A stretch of 7,046 nt of DNA from a bacterium. Its GTDB lineage: Bacteria > UBP4 > UBA4092 > JAOAEQ01. The stretch lies in assembly GCA_026416715.1 (NCBI GenBank), contig JAOAEQ010000041.1, positions 1-7,046 of the forward strand. Direction: 5' to 3'. Of the stretch, positions 2,353 through 7,046 are shown piece by piece; position 1 is the stretch's first letter, and every line of letters starts with the position of its first letter. The notes beneath the pieces were generated by a model, which was given only the letters and a program-made list of their open reading frames with translations, was not told where the DNA came from and did not search any database. Position numbers and translations under genes: made by a program.

Positions 2353-3135
2353 TCAGCTGTTTCTTCGCCATTCGATTTTCGCATACGCATTATGGTTATG
2401 GATACTTTCGAAATTTTCGGATTCAACGGAAAAAAACCGTATCTGCTTGCGCTTTGCTAATTTCAATAATCGTTCCGCTACCGACCGAACAATATCTTCA
2501 ACAAACGCCGGATGCGCATACGCCTGCTCGGTTAAAAACCGTTCATCTTCGCGTTTCAATAGCGCATAGACCTGCGCAGAAGCGCATTGTTCAACCAGCG
2601 CAACGATATCTTCTATCCAAATCAGTTTTTTTGAATCAATCCGTACCGTAACCATACTGCGCTGGTTATGCGCGCTCTGTTTCGCTAATGATTTCGAACA
2701 GGGACATAAACTGGTTACCGGAACATTCACTTCAAGCATAAGATGCATCCGGTCATCATGGGAAGCAATAAACCGGCAGAGATAATCCATCAGCGATTTC
2801 GATTTCGATACCGGCGCGCGTTTCTCAATAAAATAGGGAAACGCAATCTCGATATACGCCGAATCCGCACGAAGCGCTCGTTTGATTTCTTCCAGAATCG
2901 CATGCAGGTTCGCTAAACTTACCGCACCATGATGCCGATTTAACACTTCAATAAATCGGCTCATATGGGTTCCACGAAAATGATGCGGCAGATTCACATA
3001 CATATTGATTGACGCAACGGTACTCTGCTGCTCTTTCCGTTTATCCATAACAATGATCGGATATCGGATATCTTTAACGCCGACCCGGTCGATTTTAAGT
3101 TTCCGTTTATCAGTTTCATTCTGGATATCACGCAT
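2353..3135 (-). CDS. folE2: GTP cyclohydrolase IB (FolE2)
   Basis: This 260-aa protein is the usual length of the FolE2/MptA-like family (PF02649). It converts GTP to 7,8-dihydroneopterin triphosphate plus formate, the first step towards tetrahydrofolate and, in many bacteria, queuosine. Recognisable blocks in order are VGVKDIRYP (18-26), GTHMSRFIEVL (55-65), SLCPCSK (142-148), AHNQRS (155-160), LTEQAYAHPAFVEDIVR (201-217) and ENFESIHNHNAYA (240-252). The Cys of the CPC motif (C146) corresponds to the family's active-site metal ligand. FolE2 is cytosolic and structurally distinct from FolE; in some bacteria it is the isozyme used under zinc shortage and is under Zur control, but I see no obvious Zur box here. 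The start is well set by AGAGGAG 7 nt upstream of ATG. It is divergent from the PLD gene and has a long probable 5' leader with a strong hairpin. No other folate or queuosine genes are in the window. Confidence 0.95.
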   Translation of the reverse strand: MRDIQNETDKRKLKIDRVGVKDIRYPIIVMDKRKEQQSTVASINMYVNLPHHFRGTHMSRFIEVLNRHHGAVSLANLHAILEEIKRALRADSAYIEIAFPYFIEKRAPVSKSKSLMDYLCRFIASHDDRMHLMLEVNVPVTSLCPCSKSLAKQSAHNQRSMVTVRIDSKKLIWIEDIVALVEQCASAQVYALLKREDERFLTEQAYAHPAFVEDIVRSVAERLLKLAKRKQIRFFSVESENFESIHNHNAYAKIEWRRNS

Positions 3136-3404: not shown

Positions 3405-4640
3405 ATGAAACGGCAATATCGCTGGTTGGTATATGTAATCATATTAAGTGTTTTGGTACCAAGTGTTTATAGCTTGGTGCAAGGCGGTGGGTATCCCGAT
3501 TTCGAGCTGGTTGAAAGTGTTCCGATAGAGACCGTTCTAGATAATCCGAATATTCGGAATACCGCAGAAGTCTGGCTGGAAATGATAAACGGGGCAAAGA
3601 AAACGCTGGATATTGAACAATTCTATATCTCCAACGAACCGAACGAATCGCTAGAACCGATAATTCAAGCAATCATTTCCGCTGGGCGGCGCGGGGTTCA
3701 GGTTCGAATTATTGCAGAGATGAAATTTTATAAAACCTATCCAGAAACGCTAGACCGATTGAAACAAGCGAAAAATATTTCGGTGCGATTGATTGATTTT
3801 GGGAAACTAGCTGGCGGGGTTCAGCATGCGAAATATTTCATTGTTGATAAAAAGCAGGTGTTCGTTGGAAGCCAGAATTTCGATTGGCGAGCGTTGAGTC
3901 ATATCCACGAACTTGGGTTGCGAATCGATAACGCGGACTGCGCAAAGATTTTCGGTGATGTATTCGAACTGGATTGGAACCTTGCGGAAAAAAATGATGC
4001 GCGACTGTTGAACGATGTTCTCATTAAAAAACAGTATTCAGTGCCGATAATCCTAACGGAACCAGAACATCAGAAAGTAAGCTTTGTGCCGGTCTATAGT
4101 CCGACCGGCTGGATTCCCGATGAATCGCTCTGGGATGAACCGAAACTCATCGAGTTAATTGATTCAGCGAACCAAGAACTTGTTCTGCAGGTGCTAACCT
4201 ACAATCCGAAGACGAAAGATGGCTACTATGCGGAACTGGATAATGCGTTACGACGTGCGGCTGCGCGCGGGGTTAAGGTTAAACTGGTCGTTTCCGACTG
4301 GTCGAAACGGAAACCGCAAATATTCTATTTGCAAAGTCTAGCGGTACTTCCGAATATCGAGGTTAAATTGAGTACGATCCCGCAATATTCCGGCGGGTTT
4401 ATTCCGTACGCTCGGGTTGAACATTGCAAATATCTGGTTGCGGATTCGCGTAGAAGCTGGCTCGGAACCAGTAACTGGGAGAAAGGATATTTCTATGATT
4501 CGCGAAATCTCGGGGTGATTATTGAGAGTGAACGGATTTCGGAACTGCTCCATCAAATCTTTATGAAAAGCTGGAATAGTCCGTATACCTATTATGTGAA
4601 ACCGGAAGAAGAATACCAACCACCTAGGATTGGAGAATAA
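3405..4640 (+). CDS. Exported phospholipase D-superfamily protein, PLD3/K4-like
   Basis: This 411-aa protein has two HKD (HxKxxxxD) catalytic motifs: H141-K143-D148 followed by GSQN (155-158), and H340-K342-D347 followed by GTSN (354-357). All key residues are intact. Such enzymes form a covalent phospho-histidine intermediate and cleave phosphodiesters of lipids or nucleic acids. An N-terminal hydrophobic segment (about 8-25, after KRQYR) is a signal peptide or membrane anchor, placing the enzyme outside the cytoplasm. The context after HKD1 (NFDWRALSHIHELG) and around HKD2 (ARVEHCKY, GTSNW) resembles the PLD3/PLD4/poxvirus K4 branch more than cardiolipin synthases, which carry longer membrane regions. 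PLD3 and PLD4 are known as 5' exonucleases, so a nuclease role is possible, but the substrate cannot be read from sequence. Start ATG has GAGGG 7 nt upstream. It is transcribed alone, divergent from folE2. A weak terminator may follow (TTTAGC/GCTAAA arms, then a T-run at 4742-4748). Confidence 0.9.
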   Translation: MKRQYRWLVYVIILSVLVPSVYSLVQGGGYPDFELVESVPIETVLDNPNIRNTAEVWLEMINGAKKTLDIEQFYISNEPNESLEPIIQAIISAGRRGVQVRIIAEMKFYKTYPETLDRLKQAKNISVRLIDFGKLAGGVQHAKYFIVDKKQVFVGSQNFDWRALSHIHELGLRIDNADCAKIFGDVFELDWNLAEKNDARLLNDVLIKKQYSVPIILTEPEHQKVSFVPVYSPTGWIPDESLWDEPKLIELIDSANQELVLQVLTYNPKTKDGYYAELDNALRRAAARGVKVKLVVSDWSKRKPQIFYLQSLAVLPNIEVKLSTIPQYSGGFIPYARVEHCKYLVADSRRSWLGTSNWEKGYFYDSRNLGVIIESERISELLHQIFMKSWNSPYTYYVKPEEEYQPPRIGE

Positions 4641-5116
4641 GGTTTCTCGATTTTAGCCAACTAGGAGTTAAAATATTCATTTCATATTTAGCATTTTAAA
4701 TTTCAAATTTATAATCCTAATTCTAACCGCTAAAATTCTAATTTTTTTCTATTGGACTTGACCCCAGGGTTCTCCTCGATTTATCGTGGAGATATCGTTT
4801 GTCTGCCTTATGTTTTGGGTTGAACCCCGATTATTTATTACTATCTTTCCCCCGATTTAAACATCGGGACGATTCATTATTTATTATCCCATCTCCCGAG
4901 ATGAATCTCAGGGCTATTCATAATTTGACTAGCCCCTATCTTTAGATAGGAGGTACTAATTATAAAAAACAAACCGGGCTTTAGCCCAGAACCATCATGG
5001 GTATTAAAAACATTTGCAATATAAAGTTGCGATTTAAGTCGTATCATGCGAAAATGATTAATAAATAATTCTTATTTTCCAGCGATGCTAAGTATGGTTG
5101 TAATCTGCTTTTCATT
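4641..5116. other. Hairpin-rich intergenic region
   Basis: There is no gene in this 476-nt gap. The first 110 nt are very AT-rich and end in a T-run (4742-4748), a possible weak terminator for the PLD gene. The middle carries a run of short hairpins (described separately). The last 130 nt lead to the ACT-MBL gene; I see no convincing promoter there, and no Shine-Dalgarno sequence near its start codon. Confidence 0.6.
4772..4987. repeat. Cluster of six short palindromes
   Basis: Six hairpins occur in 216 nt: 4772-4791 (CTCC.CGAT/ATCG.GGAG), 4817-4827 (GGGTT-G-AACCC), 4851-4868 (CCCGAT/ATCGGG), 4895-4913 (CCCGAGAT/ATCTCAGGG), 4935-4950 (CCTATC-TTTA-GATAGG) and 4976-4987 (GGGC-TTTA-GCCC). Most have C-rich left arms, G-rich right arms and an A/T-only or nearly A/T-only centre, and AT-rich linkers such as ATTATTTATTA and ATTCATTATTTATTA recur between them. 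They look like diverged copies of one kind of palindromic unit, as in REP-like intergenic repeats. No transposase is nearby. Confidence 0.6.
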
Positions 5117-6703
5117 ATGCCAGATAAATATTTTCGGATTTATAAAGCTGAATCGAATGAACCGGATTATCTCGGTAAAATAACGGTGTTTCTCGCTGAT
5201 CGACCGGGGTCGTTAGCAGCGTTAGCGAGTATTTTTGCGAAGTTCGGAATCAATATTATCTATTTCTATTATAACCGGTCAGAACATCCGAACCGAGTTC
5301 TGCTCGAAGTTCGCAGCGAGAGTATCGATGCATTACATAAAGTCCAGCAAGAACTCGCTAGCCAAAATCTTTTTGATCACGACCTGATGCGGCATCCCCA
5401 TCTTGAACTCGGTGTCTTGGATACCGCTAGTATCCTGCATATCGTAATTCAACTCGAAAATAAACCGGGAACGTTAGGTAAATTCGCTACGTTACTTCGT
5501 GACCATTCCGCAAATGTTATCTATATGGCATATAACGAGGATATTTCTGAAACGACAGCGGATATCTCGCTCGTGACTCAAGATTCCGGCGAAATCGACC
5601 GACTCCTGAAGGATATGAACGAACAAGGGTATCATTACAGTTTGCGGTATAAAGGCGCAGAACAGAAAGAAGTTGAAGATATTATCGGATTAAACCTGGT
5701 TGAACGGTTCTTCTTCCGACTCAAGAAAACCTTGCATACCGATGATATTAACCGACTTAAAAAACTGGTCGAATCATCGTCGCGAATGTCAGAGATGCTG
5801 GTCAAATTCAGTCAGGAAGCAGGAAAACATCTAGAAGCCGGAGAAGTGTTTACCAACATTTTAGCGTTCGCTTCAGTTTCGTTAAGTAAAACCGGGCAGA
5901 ATTTTTCGTATCGGCGCCTGCCGTCATTGCCGTTCGGAAACGTTACCTTCCATGCGTTTCGGCTACCGACTGGCGGGAATATCTATCTGCTGGAAAGCGA
6001 ACCTGAACTCGTTATGATTGACGGTGCGTATGGCGTGTATTATTCTGATGTGAAAAGGATGCTCACCGAGAACGGACTCGACCCGAGCCGAATCAGCCGG
6101 ATATATTTAAGTCATACCGATGCAGACCATGCTGGGTTAAGCGGATATTTCGCAGACGAGTTCGGTACGAAGGTATATCTACATCCGGCATCGCGCGGAA
6201 TAATCGAACATGAGAATCGCGCTTGGGGAAGCGATTCACGGCTACTCGATTTAAACCATTATTTTACGATTTTAGTTAACGAGTTTACACAGTTCCGTGT
6301 TCCGAAAACGTGGTATGAATATAACACGACTGAAATTGGTAAAGAAGACGGATTCAGCGTTATTGATACGTTCGAACTTGCCGGGCAGACGTATACCATT
6401 ATCGAAAGTACCGGCGGACATATTCCTGGGAACGTTTTTTTCATTAGTGAAGAGTCCGGTTTAGTTTTCACCGGCGATTATCTTTTATTGATCGAAAGTT
6501 TGAGTCCAGAAGATCGAACGAACCTGAATTATCCGAAGTTTATGATGACAAGCACCAACGCGGATAGCCGAAAGTTTAAACAGGAAATGGATATGCTGAA
6601 ATCGTTCGTCCAGAAATTTAACGCCCGATTACAATCGCAAAATCGCGGGGCGATTATCGTTCCCGGGCATGGAGATTATTATCCGGCGAATAGGTTGAAA
6701 TAA
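5117..6703 (+). CDS. ACT-ACT-metallo-beta-lactamase fold fusion protein
   Basis: This 528-aa cytosolic protein has three parts. Residues about 17-90 and 104-178 are two ACT-type small-molecule-binding domains (KITVFLADRPGSLAALASIF and LHIVIQLENKPGTLGKFATL, the D/N-x-PG-x-L signature). Residues about 180-265 are a charged helical linker. Residues about 270-528 are a metallo-beta-lactamase domain: SHTDADHAG (H333, D335, D337, H338), STGGH (H435), FTGD (D454) and VPGHGD (H518). The metal site is HxDxDH rather than the classical HxHxDH, so one usual His ligand is Asp; the rest is intact, so a hydrolase or related metalloenzyme is plausible. ACT domains usually bind amino acids and control the attached enzyme, so I infer an allosterically regulated hydrolase; substrate unknown. 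The frame has a stop at 5066-5068 and no earlier ATG or GTG, which fixes ATG 5117 despite no visible Shine-Dalgarno sequence. It converges on the GGDEF gene and has no operon partner. Confidence 0.88.
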   Translation: MPDKYFRIYKAESNEPDYLGKITVFLADRPGSLAALASIFAKFGINIIYFYYNRSEHPNRVLLEVRSESIDALHKVQQELASQNLFDHDLMRHPHLELGVLDTASILHIVIQLENKPGTLGKFATLLRDHSANVIYMAYNEDISETTADISLVTQDSGEIDRLLKDMNEQGYHYSLRYKGAEQKEVEDIIGLNLVERFFFRLKKTLHTDDINRLKKLVESSSRMSEMLVKFSQEAGKHLEAGEVFTNILAFASVSLSKTGQNFSYRRLPSLPFGNVTFHAFRLPTGGNIYLLESEPELVMIDGAYGVYYSDVKRMLTENGLDPSRISRIYLSHTDADHAGLSGYFADEFGTKVYLHPASRGIIEHENRAWGSDSRLLDLNHYFTILVNEFTQFRVPKTWYEYNTTEIGKEDGFSVIDTFELAGQTYTIIESTGGHIPGNVFFISEESGLVFTGDYLLLIESLSPEDRTNLNYPKFMMTSTNADSRKFKQEMDMLKSFVQKFNARLQSQNRGAIIVPGHGDYYPANRLK

Positions 6704-6828: not shown

Positions 6829-7046
6829 TTATCCCAGCTTGTCCTTGTCGGGGATACCTTCTGGTTTATCAACTTTCTTCTTGGTATTTTCAGTCGGTTC
6901 TTTCTGGTGATTGAATTCTGCGATGCAAACTCGGTTCCGCCCTGCTTCTTTCGCCGCATAAAGCGCTTGGTCAGATTTTTTTAATAAATCCTGTGGGTTG
7001 GTTCCGTGGTCAGGATATACTGCTATCCCGATACTTACCGTAATCT
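6829..7046 (-). CDS. GGDEF-domain protein (diguanylate cyclase), C-terminal fragment
   Basis: An open frame enters from the right edge and ends at TAA (6829-6831), giving 71 residues. It begins ITVSIGIAVYPDHG and continues LLKKSDQALYAAKEAGRNRV, which is the hallmark end of the GGDEF domain (the SIGIA strand, then the S/A-D-x-A-L-Y-x-A-K-x-x-GRN helix). GGDEF enzymes make cyclic di-GMP from two GTP. The catalytic GG(D/E)EF motif, inhibitory site and any sensor domain lie outside the window, so activity cannot be judged. After the domain comes a lysine- and glutamate-rich tail of about 26 residues (HQKEPTENTKKK ... KLG) that is not part of the usual fold. The gene is convergent with the ACT-MBL gene. 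Confidence 0.88.
   Translation of the reverse strand, partial: ITVSIGIAVYPDHGTNPQDLLKKSDQALYAAKEAGRNRVCIAEFNHQKEPTENTKKKVDKPEGIPDKDKLG

Follow-up and report, generated by a model that had tools for sequence, protein, structure and literature searches.

Tandem ACT domains in the arrangement of threonine deaminase (IlvA) are feedback switches of amino-acid biosynthetic enzymes, and the IlvA-type arrangement controls isoleucine synthesis. In IlvA (9d2s, Escherichia coli threonine dehydratase with isoleucine; 8y1j, Pseudomonas aeruginosa IlvA1), the pair is C-terminal and belongs to a PLP enzyme, and the acetolactate synthase small subunit (IlvH/IlvN/IlvM) regulates a ThDP enzyme from a chain of its own. 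Enzymes of the metallo-beta-lactamase (MBL) superfamily are recognized by the hallmark motif HxHxDH (PMC7785958), the second His of which is replaced by a conserved Asp in ComEC (PMC5031224), a membrane channel for DNA uptake, and by Glu in the flavodiiron proteins (FDPs), a change linked to the holding of Fe(III) (PMC7785958). A putative lactonase carries HXDXDH (PMC6146095), and in a Mn-dependent ComEC nuclease, in which H598, D600, D602 and H603 were changed, most changes to the metal ligands left the enzyme virtually inactive (PMC12455585). We found no description of a protein combining ACT and MBL domains in the open-access literature searched. The domain combination analysed here is thus new in that literature, while every one of its parts, and the motif change itself, has known precedents.

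The window, the whole stretch of 7,046 nucleotides that was analysed, spans an entire contig of a 2.96-Mb bacterial assembly (contig C41) and carries an intact open reading frame with an ATG start codon, the product of which we refer to as P0001 (Table 1). Pfam detects ACT domains in two stretches (PF01842, E 5.3e-13) and Lactamase_B over residues 284-463 (PF00753, E 9.3e-15), both exceeding the curated cut-offs. No NCBIfam model scores above its own cut-off for P0001, the nearest including those of threonine ammonia-lyase (TIGR01127, PRK07334). The earlier note, working from the letters of the DNA, had proposed a tandem ACT pair joined to an MBL domain by a helical linker, and this is borne out by Pfam, AlphaFold2 and the family alignment; the linker is present as proposed but is nearer 80 residues than the 85 first given. 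The three-part architecture, an ACT pair, a helical bundle and an MBL domain, is therefore that of a genuine, conserved protein.

Table 1. Features of the ACT-MBL gene, in positions of the window
Feature	Position	Strand	Basis
ACT-ACT-helical-MBL gene, complete (528 aa plus stop; P0001)	5117..6703	+	ORF, translation, 19-member alignment
ACT domain 1, residues about 17-90	5165..5386	+	Pfam PF01842; model strands/helices 18-82
ACT domain 2, residues about 103-181	5423..5659	+	Pfam ACT, Thr_dehydrat_C; model 106-179
Helical linker, residues 183-262, four helices	5663..5902	+	Full-length model
MBL-fold domain, residues 263-528	5903..6700	+	Pfam PF00753; PDB fold matches
Metal motif H333-T-D335-A-D337-H338 (HxDxDH)	6113..6130	+	Metal positions invariant, 19/19 members
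Family-specific block, residues 367-384	6215..6268	+	N367, R368, G371, L379, N380, T384 invariant
H435, third metal motif	6419..6421	+	Invariant
D454, predicted bridging ligand	6476..6478	+	Invariant
H518, last metal ligand, within PGHGDYY	6668..6670	+	Invariant

The protein belongs to a family of restricted distribution. A contig scan by exact peptide patterns returned a single match, L002, which is 53% identical and comes from a Thermodesulfovibrio metagenome assembly, but given the exactness of the patterns this lone match understates the spread. A two-sequence profile search located the family in 20 of 295 sampled genomes from the phylum of Thermodesulfovibrio SKYB3 (Nitrospirota) and in 2 of 17 from another phylum; elsewhere, judged from two wide-ranging sets of some 385 genomes apiece, it is close to absent. 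From the phylum of the window itself one further genome was sampled, and it does not carry the family; viral contigs yielded no relative. In the tree, P0001 falls amid proteins of the Thermodesulfovibrio phylum (the nearest fork has support 81/84, the clade of six 100/98), so that transfer between phyla is possible. The family alignment comprises 19 full-length members including P0001, to which the other 18 are 41-61% identical, and H333, D335, D337, H338, H435, D454 and H518 are all invariant throughout; the residue numbers given in the earlier note are correct. In three close pairs of members, dN/dS lies between 0.05 and 0.35 for the ACT, linker and MBL parts alike (in a fourth pair, L002/L027, dS is partly saturated), and each part is under purifying selection. 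Together with the conservation across the family, these values indicate that the fusion is an old, selected unit and no chance or assembly joint.

The ACT pair resembles the regulatory unit of threonine deaminase in its predicted fold. In the VIA-align listings, the MBL domain takes up the rows of the full-length model and the ACT pair those of the model of the N-terminal 261 residues. The pair matches 9d2s as one unit (Z 14.7, 157 residues, rmsd 3.8; residues 14-190 of the model superpose on 333-513 of 9d2s) and 8y1j almost as well (Z 13.6, 156 residues). Residues 17-178, on whose ACT fold the earlier note had staked its reading, are modelled with confidence and match solved ACT pairs; in the N-terminal model both domains are kept at a pLDDT of about 80-95, with lower confidence in the loop near 91-100. 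Each ACT domain has an invariant Pro-Gly loop (D28-x-P30-G31 in the first and P117-G118 in the second) followed, 15 residues past the Gly, by an invariant Asn (N46 and N133), and the beta-alpha-beta-beta-alpha-beta fold, the loop and the significant profile match concur in the assignment. Among the 19 members, 16 are matched by the Pfam model Thr_dehydrat_C (best 9.2e-10) and likewise 16 by the ACT model of the AHAS small subunit, PF22629 (best 3.6e-12). Outside the family, the ACT part finds three proteins in other genomes (L015, L016 and L022; E 2.9e-5 to 2.8e-4), which by sequence inspection are of the threonine ammonia-lyase type.

Direct sequence support is weak: the tandem unit is that of threonine deaminase in layout, but the ACT part matches E. 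coli IlvA at noise level, and the likeness therefore rests on the fold, on Pfam and on the threonine ammonia-lyase-type proteins, which have one ACT domain. In P0001, moreover, the pair is N-terminal and is joined to an MBL domain, and Pfam reports no match to PALP, the catalytic domain of threonine deaminase. With the acetolactate synthase small subunit, the family has in common both PF22629 and the Gly and Asn of the ligand loop, although that subunit is not fused to its enzyme. The invariant Gly and Asn correspond to Gly14 and Asn29 of IlvH, where changes give valine resistance, and a profile comparison with the AHAS small subunit of a plant aligns the two residues in the same way. Collectively, the Pfam matches, the threonine ammonia-lyase-type relatives and the Gly/Asn loop favour, without proving, a branched-chain or other hydrophobic amino acid as the ligand.

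The segment between the ACT pair and the MBL domain is probably more than a spacer. In the full-length AlphaFold2 model, built from the 19-member alignment (mean pLDDT 86.9), helices 183-261 have a pLDDT of about 70-86, as against about 35-58 when modelled without the MBL domain. Since the linker is predicted with confidence only when that domain is present, it probably packs on it. Many columns of the family alignment between residues 190 and 252 are invariant.

The MBL domain is placed within the superfamily by its PF00753 match and by its alpha-beta-beta-alpha fold, the comparison with TTHA1429 (2zo4) giving Z 18.4 and rmsd 3.2 over 207 aligned residues, a result on a par with those for class B3 lactamases and other structures. 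TTHA1429-type proteins are also the top MBL match by sequence, and a profile of the domain matches TTHA1429-type HxHxDH hydrolases, a comparison set chosen by similarity to P0001, with 99.9% probability. In a control with three-sequence profiles of equal diversity, HxHxDH hydrolases reached 99.6-99.7%, as against 22% for FDPs. Despite this kinship in fold, sequence and profile, the members of the TTHA1429-type group that we examined are without an ACT pair, several having by inspection a further C-terminal region, and their motif is HxHxDH where that of P0001 is HxDxDH.

The altered motif sets the family apart from the consensus group: the second His is Asp in 19 of 19 members, with the six other ligands kept. 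As superfamily members with Asp or Glu at this position exist, HxDxDH excludes P0001 from the consensus group and not from the superfamily. All 14 MBL-type matches examined from a 60-genome search with P0001 alone as query carry HxHxDH, and the Asp thus represents a family-specific change on a hydrolase background. The earlier note was right that the replacement is there, and it proves to be fixed, but it is not unprecedented: Asp occurs in ComEC, in the putative lactonase and in ODPs, the solved structures of which read HQDPD with Asp at the equivalent of D335, and FDPs have Glu. In view of these precedents, the swap by itself marks no new chemistry. Between the second and third metal motifs, residues 367-384 form a family-specific block with six invariant positions (Table 1). 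Neither the related HxHxDH hydrolases nor FDPs conserve three of these, N367, R368 and N380; this pattern in the alignment suggests a specific substrate pocket, to which the block may possibly contribute.

The reading to which we give slightly better than even chances is that P0001 is a stand-alone dimetal metallohydrolase switched by a small, hydrophobic amino acid. The ligand-switched hydrolase envisaged at the outset is thereby made plausible, its ACT pair being threonine deaminase-like and its MBL domain closest to hydrolases. For P0001 we infer metal binding, a ligand class, allostery and hydrolysis along the following lines. The two ACT domains would form a pair of the threonine deaminase kind, with a small and probably hydrophobic (isoleucine- or valine-like) amino acid as their ligand, and the ligand-induced change would be relayed through the helical bundle, packed on the MBL domain, to open or close the dimetal site. 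Metal site 1 would be formed by H333, D335, H435 and D454, and metal site 2 by D337, H338, H518 and D454, the bridging role of which we take from knowledge of the MBL family. Water activated at this site might then hydrolyse a substrate of the ester, thioester, lactone or phosphoester type. Should the switch prove real, the MBL superfamily, most of whose known members are hydrolases without regulation, would gain an enzyme under allosteric control, and the family offers a direct test of how the His-to-Asp change in motif 2 affects the choice of metal.

The Asp could also move the site away from hydrolysis and towards redox chemistry at Fe, and P0001 would then be a diiron sensor or reductase, with a carboxylate-rich site 1 holding Fe that meets O2, NO or peroxide, and with the ACT pair as amino-acid input. 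We regard this as unlikely, even though it accounts for several features of the domain. ODPs have Asp and FDPs Glu at the same motif position, and the Glu has been tied to Fe(III) (PMC7785958); the Pfam ODP model matches P0001 at 30.6 bits (cut-off 27.2) and 18 of the 19 members at E<=0.01; good Foldseek matches include an FDP (1vme) and an ODP (6qnm); and most of the carriers found are from the phylum of the anaerobic Thermodesulfovibrio. However, the ODP match spans only residues 288-367, the same model also finds matches in 12 of 14 control genomes, and the profile comparisons put the MBL domain with the HxHxDH hydrolases, the ODP scoring 0.1% (a single sequence, L071) and FDPs as low as in the control above. 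Pfam detects no flavodoxin domain in P0001, no redox partner is conserved beside the gene, and the genome of P0001 holds a separate FDP-like protein (L072). A more specific version appears to us a long shot: here an ACT pair of the isoleucine/valine type would directly gate a diiron MBL site rich in carboxylates, letting a single soluble protein of Thermodesulfovibrio-related bacteria combine amino-acid supply and O2, NO or redox state as inputs.

Membership in either of these diiron families was rejected. The solved ODPs (6qrq, 6qnm) share HxDxD and the fold with P0001 but are without the following His, and the partial match to the ODP family (PF19583), at 30.6 bits, compares with 249 bits over the full length of a true ODP. 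FDPs are alike in fold and in having a carboxylate, but theirs is HxExDH and not HxDxDH, the flavodoxin domain is theirs alone, and the profile comparison with them is weak. A genuine ODP with the motif HQDPDV (L071, G147:C9:265931-266512) occurs in the same genome as one family member (L027), and its stretch contains, by inspection, a chemotaxis-receptor-like ORF; the ODP of Treponema denticola is reportedly associated with a chemotaxis receptor.

Lower still we rank a nuclease or phosphodiesterase under amino-acid control whose Mn site would resemble the HxDxDH of ComEC. ComEC MBL domains have the equal Asp swap (PMC5031224), a Mn-dependent ComEC nuclease mostly becomes virtually inactive when the ligands of this motif are changed (PMC12455585), and the invariant R368 and N380 could conceivably bind phosphate. 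Against this, the profile match to one ComEC domain (66%, E 7.5e-6) is weaker than that to the hydrolases, the ComEC genes of the sampled genomes are separate and mostly without HxDxDH, and Pfam matched no beta-CASP or nucleic-acid-binding domain in P0001. ComEC membership was discarded, as Pfam and NCBIfam found no competence domain in P0001, and so was a ComEC-type nuclease as the identity of the MBL domain, which has the motif in common but the weaker profile match. Least probable among these alternatives is a non-enzymatic regulator in which the MBL fold is a binding scaffold acting through contact with a partner: ACT proteins are often purely regulatory and the gene has no conserved operon, but metal ligands and pocket block that stay invariant at 41-61% identity to P0001, together with strong purifying selection in the MBL domain, are unlike a dead active site.

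In 18 neighbourhoods of the family, conserved neighbouring genes occur only between pairs of related loci. An argD-argF-M23 peptidase arrangement lies upstream in L057/L058 only, and a nitrilase downstream in L055/L056 only (gene names by inspection). The family gene mostly stands alone, often flanked by genes on the opposite strand, and the absence of a conserved partner argues for a self-contained sensor-plus-enzyme, although it names no pathway. The preferred reading of a switched hydrolase aside, these observations describe a protein that is conserved in little-studied bacteria and seems to be self-contained. By inspection, one family member is adjoined by an apparent CBS pair protein (L058, 9071-9559) and another by a cNMP-CBS-nucleotidyltransferase-like protein (L067, 9172-11013), neither of them conserved elsewhere.

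Upstream of the ACT-MBL gene in the window is an A+T-rich intergenic stretch of 476 bases (4641-5116), with a 27-nt imperfect inverted repeat (4830-4856 and 5043-5069, 74% complementary); an Rfam search of the whole window gave no match. The reverse strand encodes a short secretin of 294 amino acids (725-1609, E 1.5e-45), consisting of the core with little N-terminal region, and adjoining it a small OmpH-like protein (1721-2125) that falls just under the Pfam cut-off; for a secretin, this layout is unusually compact. GTP cyclohydrolase FolE2 (2353-3135, reverse strand) scores 286.7 bits, as against an NCBIfam equivalog cut-off of 215. On the forward strand, positions 3405-4640 encode a phospholipase D-like protein with two HKD motifs and an apparent N-terminal signal segment; its nearest NCBIfam model is DrmC, at 91.6 bits against a cut-off of 133, and it thus provides no evidence of DISARM. 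Convergent with the ACT-MBL gene is the C-terminal end of a GGDEF protein (6829-7044, reverse strand), cut by the end of the contig.
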